In this document: in pieces, positions 306-54,906 of the stretch | Layout: every line of letters starts with the position of its first letter | Numbering within the stretch: position 1 is the stretch's first letter | NCBI RefSeq assembly: GCF_002946835.1 | Contig: NZ_CP026652.1 | Coordinates: forward strand, 7,192,001 to 7,256,000 | Length of the DNA stretch: 64,000 nt | DNA from: Streptomyces dengpaensis | GTDB taxonomy: Bacteria > Actinomycetota > Actinomycetes > Streptomycetales > Streptomycetaceae | Reading direction: 5' to 3' | Made by a program: the position numbers and the translations under genes | Notes under the pieces: model-generated | Seen by the model: the letters and a program-made list of their open reading frames with translations, nothing else | What the model was told of the DNA's origin: nothing | The model's database searches: none

Positions 306-929
306 ATGGCACTCGCGCAGCCCGAACGGGGCGGGCTGCTGCCCCAGCGGACGGCACCCCATCGCGGCACGCTCGCCACCACCGCCTGCATGGAGACGTT
401 GCAGGTGGGCTATCTGCACGCCGTCGCGGCGGCCGCGGGCTGCTCGCTGTCCCAGCCCTTTCCGGACAACGGCATCGACTGGCACGTCAGCCACAGCGCC
501 CCCGGGCACACGGTCGACGACGAAGTCACCATCAAGGTGCAGCTCAAGTGCACGTACCAGATCCCGCCGAACCCGCCCGCCCGTCTCCCACCACCGCCCT
601 CAACCGAGGGGCCTGCGGTCCCGCCCCGCCGTCTGGGGCCCGCCTTCTCCTTCACGCTCGACAACGAGCACCTGGCGAAGCTCGCCCGCACCCCGGTCTC
701 GGTGCACAAGATCCTGGTCGTGATGCTCGTGCCCAGGTCCCAGGACGACTGGCTGCGCGCCAGCCACGACCGCCTCGACCTGCGGCACTGCTGCTACTGG
801 ACCAACCTCGCCGGACACGCCATCACCGGCCGGCGCAGGACCACCGTTCGCATACCGACCGCCCGGATCTTCGACGACCGGGCACTCTGCGAGATCATGA
901 CGCGGGTCGGGACGGGAGGCAGACCATGA
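306..929 (+). CDS. DUF4365 domain-containing protein
   Basis: A 207-residue protein starting at ATG 306, about ten bases after a GGAAGG ribosome binding site. The segment from about residue 30 to 190 resembles the DUF4365 family, with GIDWHV followed by KVQLKCT (a PD-(D/E)XK-nuclease-like arrangement) and later an LVVML strand. The family's function is not established; a nuclease-like fold is inferred. Residues about 91-113 are Pro/Arg-rich and do not fit the domain: they are encoded by the in-gene repeat element at 580-627 and look like an in-frame insertion. The stop overlaps the next start by four bases (ATGA), so the two genes probably form an operon and are translationally coupled. Confidence 0.75.
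   Translation: MALAQPERGGLLPQRTAPHRGTLATTACMETLQVGYLHAVAAAAGCSLSQPFPDNGIDWHVSHSAPGHTVDDEVTIKVQLKCTYQIPPNPPARLPPPPSTEGPAVPPRRLGPAFSFTLDNEHLAKLARTPVSVHKILVVMLVPRSQDDWLRASHDRLDLRHCCYWTNLAGHAITGRRRTTVRIPTARIFDDRALCEIMTRVGTGGRP
580..627. repeat. In-gene bipartite repeat element, copy A
   Basis: A conserved block CCCGTCTCCCACCACC (580-595) followed by CGCCCTCAACCGAGGG and a GC stem GGGGC(608-612)/GCCCC(623-627). The same block plus a GC hairpin recurs at 45793, 52927 and 54462, each inside another protein gene. In this copy the first base of the block is the second base of a codon, giving residues R-L-P-P-P-P-S-T-E-G. It appears to lengthen the DUF4365 protein by about 22 residues without breaking its frame. 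Confidence 0.65.
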
Positions 930-8052: not shown

Positions 8053-10248
8053 TCAAGCGTCCTTGGCCTGTTCACGAATCCTTTCGGCGACCTGAGACGG
8101 CATCGGCTCGTGCCGCGCGTACCTGCGGTTGAAGCGCGCGGTCCCGTGCGAGAGGGAACGCAGATCGACGGCGTACCGCCCGATCTCGATCTCCGGGACC
8201 TCGGCCCGTACGAGGGTCCGCCCGCCGCCCGCCTGCTCGGTGCCGACGACCCGGCCGCGCCGCCCCGACAGGTCGCTCATCACGGCGCCCACGTATTCGT
8301 CGCCGACCAGGACCGTCACCTCGGCCACCGGCTCCAGGAGATGGATCCTGGCGTCGGCGGCCGCCTCGCGCAGGGCGAGCGCACCCGCCGTCTGGAACGC
8401 GGCGTCGGAGGAGTCCACCGAGTGCGCCTTGCCGTCGAGCAGCGTGATCCGTACGTCGATGAGCGGATAGCCCGCGGCCACGCCCTTGGCGGCCTGGGCG
8501 CGGACGCCCTTCTCGACGGACGGGATGAACTGCCGCGGTACGGCCCCGCCGACGACCTTGTCCACGAACTCGATGCCGGAGCCGTTCGGCAGCGGTTCGA
8601 CCTCGATCTCGCAGATCGCGTACTGGCCGTGCCCGCCGGACTGCTTCACATGGCGGCCGCGTCCGGCGGACCTGTCCGCGAACGTCTCCCGTAGGGAGAC
8701 CTTGTGCGGCACGACGTCGACCTGGACGCCGTAGCGGCTGCGCAGGCGCTCCAGGGCGACGTCCGCGTGGGCCTCGCCCAGGCACCACAGGACGACCTGG
8801 TGGGTGTTCTGGTTCTGCTCCAGACGCATGGTGGGGTCCTCGGCGACCAGCCGGGCGAGGCCCTGCGAGAGCTTGTCCTCGTCGGGCTTGCTGTGCGCCT
8901 GGATGGCGAGAGGCAGCAGCGGGTCGGGCATCTGCCACGGTTCCATGAGCAGCGGGTCGTCCTTGGCCGAGAGGGTGTCCCCGGTCTCGGCGCGGTTCAG
9001 TTTCGCCACGCACGCCAGGTCGCCGGCGATGCACTGCGAGAGGATGCGCTGCTGCTTGCCGAACGGCGTGGACAGGGCGCCGACGCGCTCGTCGACGTCA
9101 TGGTCCTCGTGACCCCGGTCGGTCATTCCGTGCCCGGACACGTGCACCGTCTGGTCGGGGCGCAGGGTGCCCGAGAAGACGCGTACGAGCGATACCCGGC
9201 CCACGTACGGGTCGCTGGCCGTCTTCACGACCTCCGCGAGCAGCGGCCCGTTCGGGTCGCAGGCGTTCACCTCGCGCGGTGCGCCCTCCGGCGTCGTGAC
9301 CGTGGGTGCCTCGCGCTCCAGCGGGGTCGGGAAGCCGCCCGTGACGAGGTCGAGGAGCTCGACCGTGCCGAGGCCCTGACGGGCGCCCTCGGCGGCCGGA
9401 GCGGCGGCCAGCACCGGGAAGAAGGTCCCGCGCGCCACGGCCCGCTCAAGATCCTGCACGAGGGTCTTCAGGTCGATCTCCTCGCCGCCGAGGTAGCGGT
9501 CCATGAGGGTCTCGTCCTCGCTCTCGGCGATGATCCCCTCGATCAGCCGGTTGCGTGCCTCCTCGATGTGTGGCAGCTGGTCGGGTCCAGGCTCGGCCTC
9601 CTTGCGCTCCCCGGAGGAGTAGTCGAACAGCCGCTGGGAGAGGAGCCCGGTCAGCCCTGTCACGGGGGCGTGCCCGTCGGGACCCTCCTCGCCGCGCAGC
9701 GGCAGATACAGGGGCAGTACGGCGTCGGGGTCGTCCGCGCCGAAGGCCTCCGCGCAGATCCGCGTCATCTCCTCGAAGTCCGCCCTGGCGGCTTCCAGAT
9801 GCGTGATCACGATGGCCCGCGGCATGCCGACGGCCGCGCACTCCTCCCACACCATGCGGGTCGAGCCGTCCACGCCGTCCGAGGCCGAGACGACGAAAAG
9901 GGCCGCGTCCGCCGCTCGCAGACCGGCCCTCAGCTCCCCGACGAAGTCGGCGTATCCGGGAGTGTCGAGGATATTGATCTTGTATCCGTCCCAGTCGACG
10001 GGTACCAGGGAGAGCTGCACCGAGCGCTGCTGCCGGTGCTCGATCTCGTCGTAGTCGGAGACGGTGCCGCCGTCCTCCACGCGGCCCGCCCGGTTCACCG
10101 CTCCCGCTGTCAGCGCGAGAGCTTCCACCAGAGTCGTCTTGCCCGATCCGCTGTGGCCGACCAGCACCACATTCCGTACGGACGCGGGGTGGTCGGCCGC
10201 TGTAGCCCTGCCGGCGGCTCCGGGGTGTGCGTTCGCCTTGTCGCCCAT
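8053..10248 (-). CDS. Elongation factor G-like protein (EF-G2)
   Basis: A 731-residue translational GTPase paralogue. The ATG at 10248 follows GGGAGG; the reading frame stays open far upstream but that part has no homology-like features. Visible motifs: G1 GHSGSGKT (31-38), G3 DTPG (95-98), then domain II (around 310-400), domain IV and the C-terminal domain V ending near 715. The G4 motif, normally NKxD or TKxD for guanine recognition, reads THLE (149-152). The switch I region is also unlike canonical EF-G (DYDEIEHRQQRSVQ). Mycobacterial EF-G2, the closest known relative, binds GTP but does not support translocation, so a regulatory or ribosome-binding role is more likely than elongation. 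Divergent from pgsA. Confidence 0.88.
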   Translation of the reverse strand: MGDKANAHPGAAGRATAADHPASVRNVVLVGHSGSGKTTLVEALALTAGAVNRAGRVEDGGTVSDYDEIEHRQQRSVQLSLVPVDWDGYKINILDTPGYADFVGELRAGLRAADAALFVVSASDGVDGSTRMVWEECAAVGMPRAIVITHLEAARADFEEMTRICAEAFGADDPDAVLPLYLPLRGEEGPDGHAPVTGLTGLLSQRLFDYSSGERKEAEPGPDQLPHIEEARNRLIEGIIAESEDETLMDRYLGGEEIDLKTLVQDLERAVARGTFFPVLAAAPAAEGARQGLGTVELLDLVTGGFPTPLEREAPTVTTPEGAPREVNACDPNGPLLAEVVKTASDPYVGRVSLVRVFSGTLRPDQTVHVSGHGMTDRGHEDHDVDERVGALSTPFGKQQRILSQCIAGDLACVAKLNRAETGDTLSAKDDPLLMEPWQMPDPLLPLAIQAHSKPDEDKLSQGLARLVAEDPTMRLEQNQNTHQVVLWCLGEAHADVALERLRSRYGVQVDVVPHKVSLRETFADRSAGRGRHVKQSGGHGQYAICEIEVEPLPNGSGIEFVDKVVGGAVPRQFIPSVEKGVRAQAAKGVAAGYPLIDVRITLLDGKAHSVDSSDAAFQTAGALALREAAADARIHLLEPVAEVTVLVGDEYVGAVMSDLSGRRGRVVGTEQAGGGRTLVRAEVPEIEIGRYAVDLRSLSHGTARFNRRYARHEPMPSQVAERIREQAKDA

Positions 10249-43937: not shown

Positions 43938-46940
<3,003 letters not shown>

Positions 46941-51960: not shown

Positions 51961-52995
51961 ATGCAGCGTCATCTCATCTCGGCCGCCGACCTCACCCGCG
52001 ACGACGCCGTCCTGATCCTCGACACCGCCGAGGAGATGGCCCGGGTCGCCGACCGGCCGATCAAGAAGCTGCCGACCCTGCGCGGCCGCACCGTGGTCAA
52101 CCTCTTCTTCGAGGACTCGACCCGCACCAGAATCTCCTTCGAGGCCGCCGAGAAGCGCCTCTCCGCGGACGTCATCAACTTCACCGCCAAGGGTTCCTCG
52201 GTGTCCAAGGGCGAGTCCCTGAAGGACACCGCCCAGACCCTCGAAGCCATGGGCGTCGACGCCGTCGTCATCCGGCACGGCGCCTCCGGAGCGCCGTACC
52301 GGCTCGCCACCTCCGGCTGGATCGACGCCGCCGTCATCAACGCCGGTGACGGCACCCACCAGCACCCCACGCAGGCCCTGCTCGACGCCTTCACCATGCG
52401 CCGCCGGCTGGTCGGCCGGGACGCCGGGATAGGGCAGGACCTGTCCGGCAAGCGCATCACGATCGTGGGCGACGTCCTGCACAGCCGGGTCGCCCGCTCG
52501 AACGTCGACCTGCTGCACACCCTCGGCGCCGAGGTCACCCTCGTCGCCCCGCCGACCCTGGTGCCCGTCGGCGTCGAGTCCTGGCCCTGCGAGATCTCGT
52601 ACGACCTCGACAGCACCCTCTCCAAGTCCGACGCGGTGATGATGCTGCGCGTCCAGCGCGAGCGGATGAACGCGGCGTTCTTCCCGACCGAGCGCGAGTA
52701 CTCGCGGCGTTACGGCCTGGACGGCGACCGCATGGCGAAGATGCCCGAGCACGCCATCGTGATGCACCCCGGCCCGATGGTCCGCGGTATGGAGATCACC
52801 GCCGAGGTCGCCGACTCCGGCCGCTGCACCGTCGTCGAGCAGGTCGCCAACGGCGTCTCGATCCGCATGGCCGTCCTGTACCTGCTCCTGGGCGGCAACG
52901 AGCCCGCCGTCACCCACACCCGCCCACCCGTCTCCCACCACCACCCTTCCAACGAGCGCTCCGCGCACACCATTTCCGCGGACGAGGAGAAGTAA
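51961..52995 (+). CDS. pyrB: Aspartate carbamoyltransferase catalytic subunit
   Basis: A 344-residue enzyme that joins carbamoyl phosphate to aspartate. STRTRISFE and [10 protein letters not shown] are the substrate-binding motifs. No regulatory (PyrI) gene follows, as usual in actinobacteria. The protein is longer than the usual 305-325 residues: the C-terminal tail from about residue 318 is partly encoded by repeat copy D ([13 protein letters not shown]) and replaces or extends the normal end. Confidence 0.96.
52927..52966. repeat. In-gene bipartite repeat element, copy D
   Basis: Block CCCGTCTCCCACCACC, then ACCCTTCCAACGA and a hairpin GCGC-TCC-GCGC (52956-52966). The block starts exactly on a codon boundary in pyrB and is read [11 protein letters not shown], a third frame relative to copies A and B/C. 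Confidence 0.65.
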
Positions 52996-52999
52996 GACC

Positions 53000-54286
53000 A
53001 TGAGCAAGATCCTGATCCGTGGTGCGAAGGTGCTCGGGGGAGAGCCGCAGGACGTTCTGATCGACGGTCAGACGATCGCGCAGGTGGGTGTCGGCCTCAG
53101 CGCCGACGGCGCCGAGGTGGTCGAGGCCGACGGCAAGGTGCTGCTGCCGGGCCTCGTCGACCTGCACACCCATCTGCGCGAGCCCGGTCGTGAGGACTCC
53201 GAGACCGTGTTGACCGGTACGCGGGCCGCCGCCTCCGGTGGTTACACCGCCGTGTTCGCCATGGCCAACACCTTCCCCGTCGCCGACACCGCCGGTGTGG
53301 TCGAGCAGGTCTACCGGCTCGGCCAGGAGCACGGCTACTGCGATGTGCAGCCCATCGGCGCCGTCACCGTCGGCCTGGAGGGCACGAAGCTCGCCGAGCT
53401 GGGCGCCATGCACGAGTCCGCGGCCGGCGTCACCGTCTTCTCGGACGACGGCAAGTGCGTCGACGACGCGGTGATCATGCGCAGGGCGCTGGAGTACGTG
53501 AAGGCCTTCGGCGGTGTCGTCGCGCAGCACGCGCAGGAGCCCCGCCTCACCGAGGGCGCGCAGATGAACGAGGGTGTCGTCTCCGCCGAGCTGGGCCTCG
53601 GCGGCTGGCCCGCCGTCGCGGAGGAGTCGATCATCGCCCGCGATGTGCTGCTCGCCGAGCACGTCGGCTCGCGCGTGCACATCTGCCACCTGTCGACCGC
53701 CGGCAGCGTCGAGATCGTGCGCTGGGCCAAGTCCCGCGGCATCGACGTCACTGCCGAGGTCACCCCGCACCACCTCCTCCTCACCGATGAGCTGGTGCGC
53801 ACGTACAACCCGGTCTACAAGGTCAATCCGCCGCTTCGTACGGAGCGGGACGTCATGGCCCTGCGCGAGGCGCTCGCCGACGGCACGATCGACATCGTCG
53901 CCACCGACCACGCCCCGCACCCGCACGAGGACAAGGACTGCGAGTGGGCCGCGGCCGCCATGGGCATGGTCGGCCTGGAGACCGCGCTGTCCGTCGTCCA
54001 GCAGACGATGGTCGAGACGGGGCTGCTCGACTGGGCCGGTGTCGCCGACCGCATGTCCTTCAAGCCCGCGCGGATCGGCCAGGCGCAGGGCCACGGCCGT
54101 CCCGTCTCGGCAGGCGAGCCCGCCAGCCTCACCCTGGTCGACACGGCATACCGTGGGGCCGTGGACCCCGCGGGCTTCGCCTCGCGCAGCCGCAACACCC
54201 CCTACGAGGGCCGTGAGCTGCCGGGCCGGGTCACGCACACCTGGCTGCGGGGCAAGGCCACCCTCGTCGACGGGAAGCTCGCGTGA
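53000..54286 (+). CDS. pyrC: Dihydroorotase
   Basis: A 428-residue class I dihydroorotase (amidohydrolase). Zinc ligands H56 and H58 (DLHTHLREPG), then VAQHAQEPRLT, HICHLST and the catalytic Asp in ATDHAPH. It cyclises carbamoyl aspartate. ATG 53000 with GAGGAGAAG upstream; the ribosome binding site lies in the end of pyrB. Stop overlaps the next GTG. Confidence 0.97.
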   Translation: MSKILIRGAKVLGGEPQDVLIDGQTIAQVGVGLSADGAEVVEADGKVLLPGLVDLHTHLREPGREDSETVLTGTRAAASGGYTAVFAMANTFPVADTAGVVEQVYRLGQEHGYCDVQPIGAVTVGLEGTKLAELGAMHESAAGVTVFSDDGKCVDDAVIMRRALEYVKAFGGVVAQHAQEPRLTEGAQMNEGVVSAELGLGGWPAVAEESIIARDVLLAEHVGSRVHICHLSTAGSVEIVRWAKSRGIDVTAEVTPHHLLLTDELVRTYNPVYKVNPPLRTERDVMALREALADGTIDIVATDHAPHPHEDKDCEWAAAAMGMVGLETALSVVQQTMVETGLLDWAGVADRMSFKPARIGQAQGHGRPVSAGEPASLTLVDTAYRGAVDPAGFASRSRNTPYEGRELPGRVTHTWLRGKATLVDGKLA

Positions 54287-54906
54287 CACCTCTCATCTCC
54301 CTGGCCGCCGAACAGAAGTCGGCGGAAGTGACCGACTGGGCCGCCCGGATCGGCTGGCTCGTCGGCCTCGCCCTCTTCGTCGTGCTCATCTACTGGCTGA
54401 TGCGCGAGGGCTGGAAGTGGCGCGGCACCCTTCAGGGCGACCTGCCGGAGCTGCCCGCCCGCCCGTCGCCCACCACCACCCTCAACGGAGGCGGCAAGCC
54501 GCCGCTGCCTGGAATGCTGGACGAGCCCGGTGAGGCCAAACTGACGATGGAGGGCCGCTACCACGGGTCCACCACCGCCGGGCAGTGGCTCGACCGCATC
54601 GTGGCGCACGGCCTGGGCACCCGCAGCCGGGTCGAGCTCACGCTGACGGACGCGGGACTCGACGTCGTACGCCCTGGAGCGGCCGACTTCTTCATCCCCC
54701 TGGAGGCCCTGCGCGAGGCCCGGCTCGACAAGGGCATCGCGGGCAAGGTCCTCACCGAGGGCGGCCTGCTCGTCGTCACGTGGGCGCACGGAGACAAGCT
54801 GCTCGACTCCGGCTTCCGCTCGGACCGCGCTGCCGAGCACAACGAGTGGGCCGACACCCTGAACAGCATGGTCAACAAGAGCATCAAGACGGAAGGCGCA
54901 CGATGA
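54283..54906 (+). CDS. Membrane-anchored PH-like domain protein of the pyr operon
   Basis: A 207-residue protein. GTG 54283 overlaps the pyrC stop and the stop overlaps the carA ATG. One membrane segment (about 23-41) with a short N-terminal part, a Pro-rich linker, and a PH-like beta domain (about 80-205, [18 protein letters not shown] to [13 protein letters not shown]). An equivalent gene lies between pyrC and carA in mycobacteria, so the position is conserved, but the function is unknown. The linker contains repeat copy C. Confidence 0.8.
54462..54503. repeat. In-gene bipartite repeat element, copy C
   Basis: Block CCCGTCGCCCACCACC, then ACCCTCAACGGAG and hairpin GGCGG-CAAG-CCGCC (54490-54503). 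It shares the block and the following 14 bases with copy B, but the stem sequence differs while pairing is kept. It is read [15 protein letters not shown]. Confidence 0.75.

Follow-up and report, generated by a model that had tools for sequence, protein, structure and literature searches.

A short hairpin-bearing repeat, very probably mobile, adds short peptides to unrelated proteins of Streptomyces dengpaensis and its relatives

Introduction

REP sequences are extragenic, MIRU elements of mycobacteria are tandem units of about 50 nt inserted at start-stop overlaps, and the Rickettsia palindromic element (RPE) is palindromic as a whole unit. RPEs are about 150 bp long, each encoding a conserved peptide, according to PMC10969869. 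Coding palindromes also occur in the mitochondrial protein genes of nematomorphs; as PMC6649704 describes them, these consist of perfect inverted repeats, with conserved residues encoded in the arms, and they form no dispersed family in that account. Discussion of selfish DNA translated within core genes has centred mainly on Rickettsia (PMC10969869).

Here we characterize a short repeat found in four genes of a window of S. dengpaensis DNA, the window being the whole 64-kb stretch that was analysed. An initial annotation had likened the repeat to RPEs. The likeness holds in effect, in which RPEs are the nearest known kind, in that a dispersed short repeat lies in frame within unrelated protein genes, but not as membership. 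The present unit measures 48-57 nt (one insert, 84), has only a short hairpin beside a non-palindromic head, and encodes no conserved peptide, being read in at least five frames. It also occurs in both orientations, between genes and in tandem arrays, and its hosts are actinomycetes.

The repeat also differs in part from other described systems. Like MITEs, it is short, non-autonomous, dispersed and at times intragenic, but neither terminal inverted repeats nor a fixed target duplication was found, nor a parent transposon with its ends (the home genome's own PF01797 element being the one compared). It shares a hairpin and possible mobilisation as single-stranded DNA with REP/RAYT systems, whereas many of its copies are intragenic and several high-copy genomes yielded no Y1 gene. 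A unit of about 50 nt that can be arranged in tandem recalls MIRU, with tandems in other genera and a short one at locus L017 of the home genome; however, only some copies lie at start-stop overlaps, and many lie elsewhere, often antisense in genes. With the nematomorph palindromes it has in common the presence of hairpin DNA within protein genes.

As the annotation had supposed, we found no description of this repeat in the Streptomyces literature, most subscription papers being outside the scope of the search. The repeat has inserted many times in Streptomyces genomes, often within core protein genes whose reading frame stays intact, which suggests a type of small mobile DNA, not described before, by which proteins gain short peptides. 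It occurs here in free-living antibiotic producers, in many copies and both orientations; orthologous sites exist in empty and in filled form, and some copies form tandem arrays. Such a system makes the movement of DNA and the tolerance of proteins for extra peptides directly testable, and it affects the annotation and alignment of enzymes, including AroB and MurE.

The repeat lies in four unrelated protein genes of the window

The host genes, the copies and their parts are as follows.

306..929, + strand: host gene 1, encoding a DUF4365 protein of 207 aa (open reading frame; PF14280, E 2.8e-20)
578..634, + strand: copy 1, a 57-nt insert (empty site in relative G040, 29/29 bases between anchors matched)
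576-600, 608-613/617-622 and 614-616, + strand: head, stem and TGC loop of copy 1 (sequence reading)
45671..46819, + strand: host gene 2, aroB (3-dehydroquinate synthase), start codon provisional (PF01761, PF24621, TIGR01357)
45788..45841, + strand: copy 2, a 54-nt insert in aroB equal to 18 aa (empty 12-nt spacing at 78/81 loci)
45789-45813, 45814-45820 and 45821-45825/45829-45833, + strand: head, CAACGGA and stem of copy 2, loop TTC
51961..52995, + strand: host gene 3, pyrB (aspartate carbamoyltransferase; NF002032 above cut-off, PF02729/PF00185)
52923..52979, + strand: copy 3, about 57 nt near the pyrB C terminus, ends approximate (orthologue spacing; family model)
52923-52947 and 52956-52959/52963-52966, + strand: head and stem of copy 3, loop TCC
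54283..54906, + strand: host gene 4, encoding a bacterial PH domain-like protein (bPH_11; PF25362, E 8.3e-46)
54460..54513, + strand: copy 4, a 54-nt insert, ends approximate (orthologue spacing 81 versus 27; family model)
54458-54482, 54483-54489 and 54490-54494/54499-54503, + strand: head, CAACGGA and stem of copy 4, loop CAAG instead of the usual TNC

The shared block, CCCGTC(G/T)CCCACCACC, has exact matches at 580, 45793, 52927 and 54462, all on the + strand, as first reported. Its reported start at codon position 2 in the DUF4365 gene, 3 in aroB and the PH-like gene, and 1 in pyrB agrees with the open reading frames, the aroB frame and the copy positions. The stems proposed at 45821, 52956 and 54490 stand as described; in copy 1, by our own reading, GGGGCC-TGC-GGTCCC, with one G.T pair and the loop usual for the family, is better than the GGGGC/GCCCC given before. 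Orthologue comparison bears out the claim that the block adds residues to the aroB, bPH and DUF4365 products, the last on the basis of one relative read and a second judged by match length, and extends it to pyrB. The AroB insert directly precedes the stretch aligned to residue 42 onward of chain 3qbd_A. In a weak AlphaFold model of this protein (mean pLDDT 65.9), insert residues 40-56 score below 50 and form coil between a helix and a strand.

A model derived from 13 genome copies, the four window copies among them, scores these four at E 2.7e-14 to 1.7e-11, with no other window match below E 0.25. Once up to three mismatches are allowed, the window gives 12 matches against 5.8 expected, so just the four exact copies stand out in it.

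A near-fixed head precedes a linker, a hairpin and a loose tail

Each repeat unit runs from a near-fixed, C-rich head of 25 nt through a short linker to a small GC hairpin and a short, loose tail. The head consensus, CCC(A/G/T)CCCGTC(G/T)CCC(A/G)CCACC(A/G)CCCT, extends beyond the block originally annotated; that its variable positions fall between C runs is partly a product of the search patterns used. Six loci (L324, L327, L329, L331, L333, L337), and perhaps L334, have a sister form with an additional A and C (CCCGACCACCACCCCTCAACGAGG).

No terminal inverted repeats were seen on reading tandem units and empty/filled pairs, in which the unit ends differ. Outer inverted repeats, suggested by eye in a few copies, were rejected (z -1.1 for 142 Streptomycetaceae copies; z 0.6 for 24 copies from a second family, f17). 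A G-quadruplex on the G-rich strand was also dropped: G4Hunter gave 1.6-1.8, yet 18-24% of 200 composition shuffles fold as low. Among 13 loci scanned against Rfam, one tRNA alone exceeded its gathering threshold. At seven loci (L028, L049, L166, L170, L171, L333, L337) the usual hairpin gives way to a more extended palindrome of CTCCCCC...GGGGGACCCCC type.

Stems vary while pairing and a C(TNC)G loop are retained

The hairpin was assessed in 248 copies from Streptomycetaceae and f17, tandem units counted. Stems of at least five pairs between +25 and +62 occur in 152 of these, against 54/248 shuffled sequences and 45, 50 and 57/248 in flank windows. Stems of at least four pairs (n=211) comprise 67 different sequences, with 162 three-base loops, and 168 of them start at +31 to +33. 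When the stem has five or more pairs and the loop three bases, the loop is C(TNC)G in 111/129 element hairpins. Among control loops, which ignore the closing pair and take in the window's own element copies, TNC and GNA account for 14 and 8 (together 22/174) in the window and for 375 and 94 of 4043 at 80 aroB loci. Orthologous copies also differ by compensatory change, with GACCC-TTC-GGGTC at L323 and GGCCC-TGC-GGGCC at L428.

The proposal that structure rather than peptide is conserved is upheld by these data, since home-genome copies are read in three frames when sense and in two or more when antisense, and stem sequences change without loss of pairing or of the C(TNC)G loop. Conservation of stem and loop would fit a function as DNA or as RNA equally, and the triloop may have its role in RNA. 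Read from the opposite strand, TNC becomes GNA and the hairpin a C(GNA)G mini-hairpin; PMC4686876 describes DNA mini-hairpins with GNA loops and G-C stems as extraordinarily stable. Triloop hairpins with TCC or TAC also occur at the ends of the home PF01797 element, and the TNC loop is therefore not unique to the repeat family.

The family extends across the home genome, the genus and a second family

The exact 16-base core occurs 14 times in the whole S. dengpaensis genome, against none for the reversed pattern. Thirteen of these are true family members, and the remaining one, L008, is a core without the rest of the element. With a 25-mer and up to three mismatches, 29 matches are found (reversed pattern, 0), one of which, L042, looks like chance. 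A covariance model marks at least 61 places at E <=10 and at least 39 at E <0.06, E-values being rough; only 150 of 17,989 first-look candidates were scored, which makes 39 a lower bound. Thirty-eight loci (L302-L339) represent 37 of the 39 places and a further one at E 0.07; the two places not represented lie in the L317 tandem. Of the 38, 23 fit the degenerate 25-mer exactly or with a single mismatch.

Across the genus, the exact 21-mer core is present in 232 of 392 Streptomyces genomes, with 0 to 17 per genome and 677 in total (reversed control, two genomes); the home genome has 17 and its relative G040 has one. A draw of Streptomycetaceae found the core in 66/150 genomes and 9/17 genera (reversed control, one genome), and a class-wide draw in 29/394 genomes, confined to Streptomycetaceae and f17; the three draws overlap. 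Viral contigs contained no exact core, and plasmids and phages gave no convincing match at E <=1, two Streptomyces plasmid matches being 80-82% identical.

Genome-wide copies beyond chance, which had been set as a test, are thus found, the home genome and genus far exceeding the reversed-pattern control. That the block is a chance likeness of GC-rich coding sequence is extremely improbable. The motif is short and C-rich in a GC-rich genome, and L008 is one such case among the 14 exact cores, but the reversed-pattern counts in the home genome and the genus, and relatives with empty sites, argue against it.

Orthologous sites are found both empty and filled

Orthologues without the block are shorter at the insertion points, so that equally long unrelated sequence, the other outcome posed at the outset, is not the case. 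Among 81 aroB loci (80 orthologous and the window), 78 have a 12-nt spacing, and the window and L117 have 54 nt more at the same codon. At this codon, L133 has 24 nt of a different GC palindrome (near 10110, GGGGGTCCCCC type). From these alignments, the aroB codon appears to be one permissive site for two repeat kinds, the element and the L133 palindrome.

The bPH gene was placed at 62 loci, with a spacing of 27 in 53, 30 or 36 in three and 81 in six. The window, L109, L112, L114 and L130 share one filled point, and L133 has its copy at a second position; L124, one of the three loci of spacing 30 or 36, is remnant-like. In pyrB (63 loci placed), spacing is 24 in 27 loci, 27 in 13 and otherwise 18 to 84. 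The element is present in the window and L074, in shortened form in L079, L112 and L130, and at other placements in L088 and L133, and certain further loci have longer unrelated ends.

The filled taxa do not form one clade. Five changes are needed for five filled taxa on a three-gene tree (bPH and pyrB sites) and on the bPH gene tree (bPH site), with L133 excluded for bPH and L133, L088 and L142 for pyrB. Trees forcing one clade were rejected (p 3.8e-78 for bPH with three genes, 0.0018 for the bPH gene, 8.4e-11 for pyrB), in tests whose groups were named after the filled taxa were known and with L117 excluded from the bPH gene tree. Repeated gain, repeated precise loss or short-tract transfer is therefore needed.

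Two further genes have insertions in the home genome and 29/29 other loci empty, each comparison using the best 30 matches in 61 genomes searched: an antisense insert of +57 in murE, whose protein is 96% identical between the home genome and G040, and a sense insert of +51 in the phosphoglucomutase gene. Of 32 prepared home sites, 29 were compared with G040 and a second relative, G212. G040 has no element at 26 and is filled at L319, L323 and L326. G212 is filled at seven (L306, L320, L323, L324, L326, L327, L329), partial at L330 and without the element at 20, most of these empty calls resting on match lengths alone. At L316 the home position is empty in G040, but a degraded copy is found some 30 nt upstream, as is a copy in G212. 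Compared with L412 and L430, which occupy the same gene-start region in different species, L316 may be a shifted or an independent insertion.

Inserts in genes keep the reading frame

Net insert lengths relative to the relatives are 48, 51, 53, 54 and 57 nt, and 84 nt once; L306, at the pyrB end, shows 56 and was counted as 57, with one further indel base after the stop codon. Where a single open frame carries coding signal to either side of the insert, which is so at 12 sites (L302, L303, L307 with weak left signal, L310, L312, L315, L318, L320, L327, L328, L329, L332), every insert length is a multiple of three. The same is true of all 22 sites taken as coding, which add eight gene-start sites (L308, L309, L314, L316, L321, L322, L330, L334) and L313, each with coding signal on one side, and the pyrB end. 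Inserts at four sites taken as noncoding measure 54 (L311), 54 (L304), 48 (L305) and 53 nt (L324); as three of these four are also multiples of three, unit length accounts for part of the frame keeping.

Host families checked are DUF4365, 3-dehydroquinate synthase, ATCase, bPH_11, Mur ligase, phosphoglucomutase, AFG1 ATPase and alpha-amylase. Home-genome translations include ARLPPPP among sense readings and EGGGGRRV or EGRWWETGG in antisense. Some copies lie at overlapping ATGA/GTGA junctions (L015, L028, L034, L048, L166).

Orientation was examined in 146 copies, collected with near-exact head patterns, which form 95 site clusters. Thirty-eight clusters lie inside an open gene frame, of which 29 are antisense and nine sense (p 0.0017). 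Clusters at gene starts and between genes (N+ and ++ versus -N and --) number 27 in sense and 10 in antisense orientation (p 0.0076); 14 clusters without coding signal, three +N and three N- fell outside these tests. This non-random orientation, together with the presence of the element at the same site in several species, would suit old insertions that were kept as a regulatory element, be it a C-rich leader RNA with a hairpin, a Rho loading site or a protein-binding site, and that spread mostly by interspecies recombination and are now immobile. We regard this as quite unlikely, because the murE and phosphoglucomutase insertions are, among 30 loci each, confined to the home genome, the aroB insertion to 2/81 loci, and exact cores vary between 0 and 17 within one genus.

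Junctions and a possible mode of movement

Mobility follows from the lineage-specific insertions, and the block very probably belongs to a family of short mobile elements, non-autonomous and about 48-57 nt long. Taken whole, our best explanation, a mobile family filtered by reading frame and recognised as a single strand, is likely; the single-strand mechanism, considered separately, is tentative. The element inserts in either orientation, in intergenic positions, at gene starts and within genes, and leaves no fixed duplication of the target. Its recognised form would be single-stranded DNA, namely the G-rich strand with the C(GNA)G mini-hairpin, a reading suggested by the triloop, by an architecture that is one-sided and by the absence of any fixed duplication, and a putative single-strand nuclease or transposase would act in trans. 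Survivors within genes keep frame and seem to be placed where extra residues are tolerated, and selection for tolerated peptides would act as the filter. The family may even represent a new class of minimal mobile DNA of about 50 nt, with neither inverted ends nor coding capacity, recognised as a single strand through a G-rich head and a C(GNA)G mini-hairpin and still adding short peptides to core enzymes across Streptomycetaceae and a second actinomycete family, a wider reading that we hold to be conceivable rather than likely.

No fixed target-site duplication was seen in 25 empty/filled pairs, of which 22 were usable and three (L304, L314, L316) gave no usable fit. Four of the 22 junctions are free of sliding ambiguity and have no duplication; the remainder slide by 1-9 positions. 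On these alignments a fixed duplication is excluded, and short duplications of varying length may occur. By eye, many targets already bear CG or CGCC where the head starts. Examples holding the first head bases are ATCCGCCC at L303, CCGCC at L312 and TCGCC at L313, and the target of copy 1 likewise contains the first bases of the head; the right end has no such homology.

These junctions also bear on a route that requires no transposase, in which the G-rich head and the hairpin stall replication and the growing strand changes template at sites with short homology to the head (CGCC), copying about 50 nt. Targets that already hold the first head bases and a right end without homology fit this route, as do the absence of inverted repeats, the loose right ends, the tandem arrays and the failure of our searches to yield a candidate partner enzyme. 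However, this homology is short, several sites (L307, L309, L310, L316, L322) show none that is evident, and the number of dispersed copies, their fixed head and their similar length speak for a recognised unit. We consider template switching somewhat unlikely.

A Y1 transposase (PF01797) was evaluated as a candidate partner. It is present in 8/14 chosen copy-rich genomes against 1/14 chosen zero-copy genomes, including all six copy-rich Streptomyces tested, and was not found in G415, G423, G435, G393, G586 and G723, which belong to other genera and have 11-38 exact cores. Genus-wide, 139/392 genomes have PF01797, with a mean of 2.53 copies where it is present and 1.28 where it is absent (p 1.4e-4). 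Within genome-size deciles the link gives a rank p of 0.086 and a mean-difference p of 0.009, descent being uncorrected. The repeated element of the home genome that holds a Y1 gene has no head at its ends. A Y1 partner thus fits but is not established, being missing from six copy-rich genomes and weak after size control, and for the first of these reasons and the non-significant rank test template switching is kept as the main alternative to single-strand recognition.

Tandem arrays and nested copies

Head-to-tail copies occur in G415, G423, G435, G396, G498 and several f17 genomes. Their units are mostly 49-57 nt, which places the unit ends; the exceptions are one spacing of 36 at L278 and one of 87 at L279. 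Three arrays, at L262, L265 and L272, contain 9, 6 and 7 near-identical units with a hairpin of their own in each array, which suggests local amplification and makes them possible typing loci. In G586 (L274, L282, L283, L285, L287) the unit is nested in a larger dispersed repeat with common flanks GGGGCCTCCGCTTCGCTT. In an f17 genome, an element copy at about 500-650 of L295 lies within a gene, to which it adds about 51 nt; this gene reads like one that we take to be of the TnpB type.
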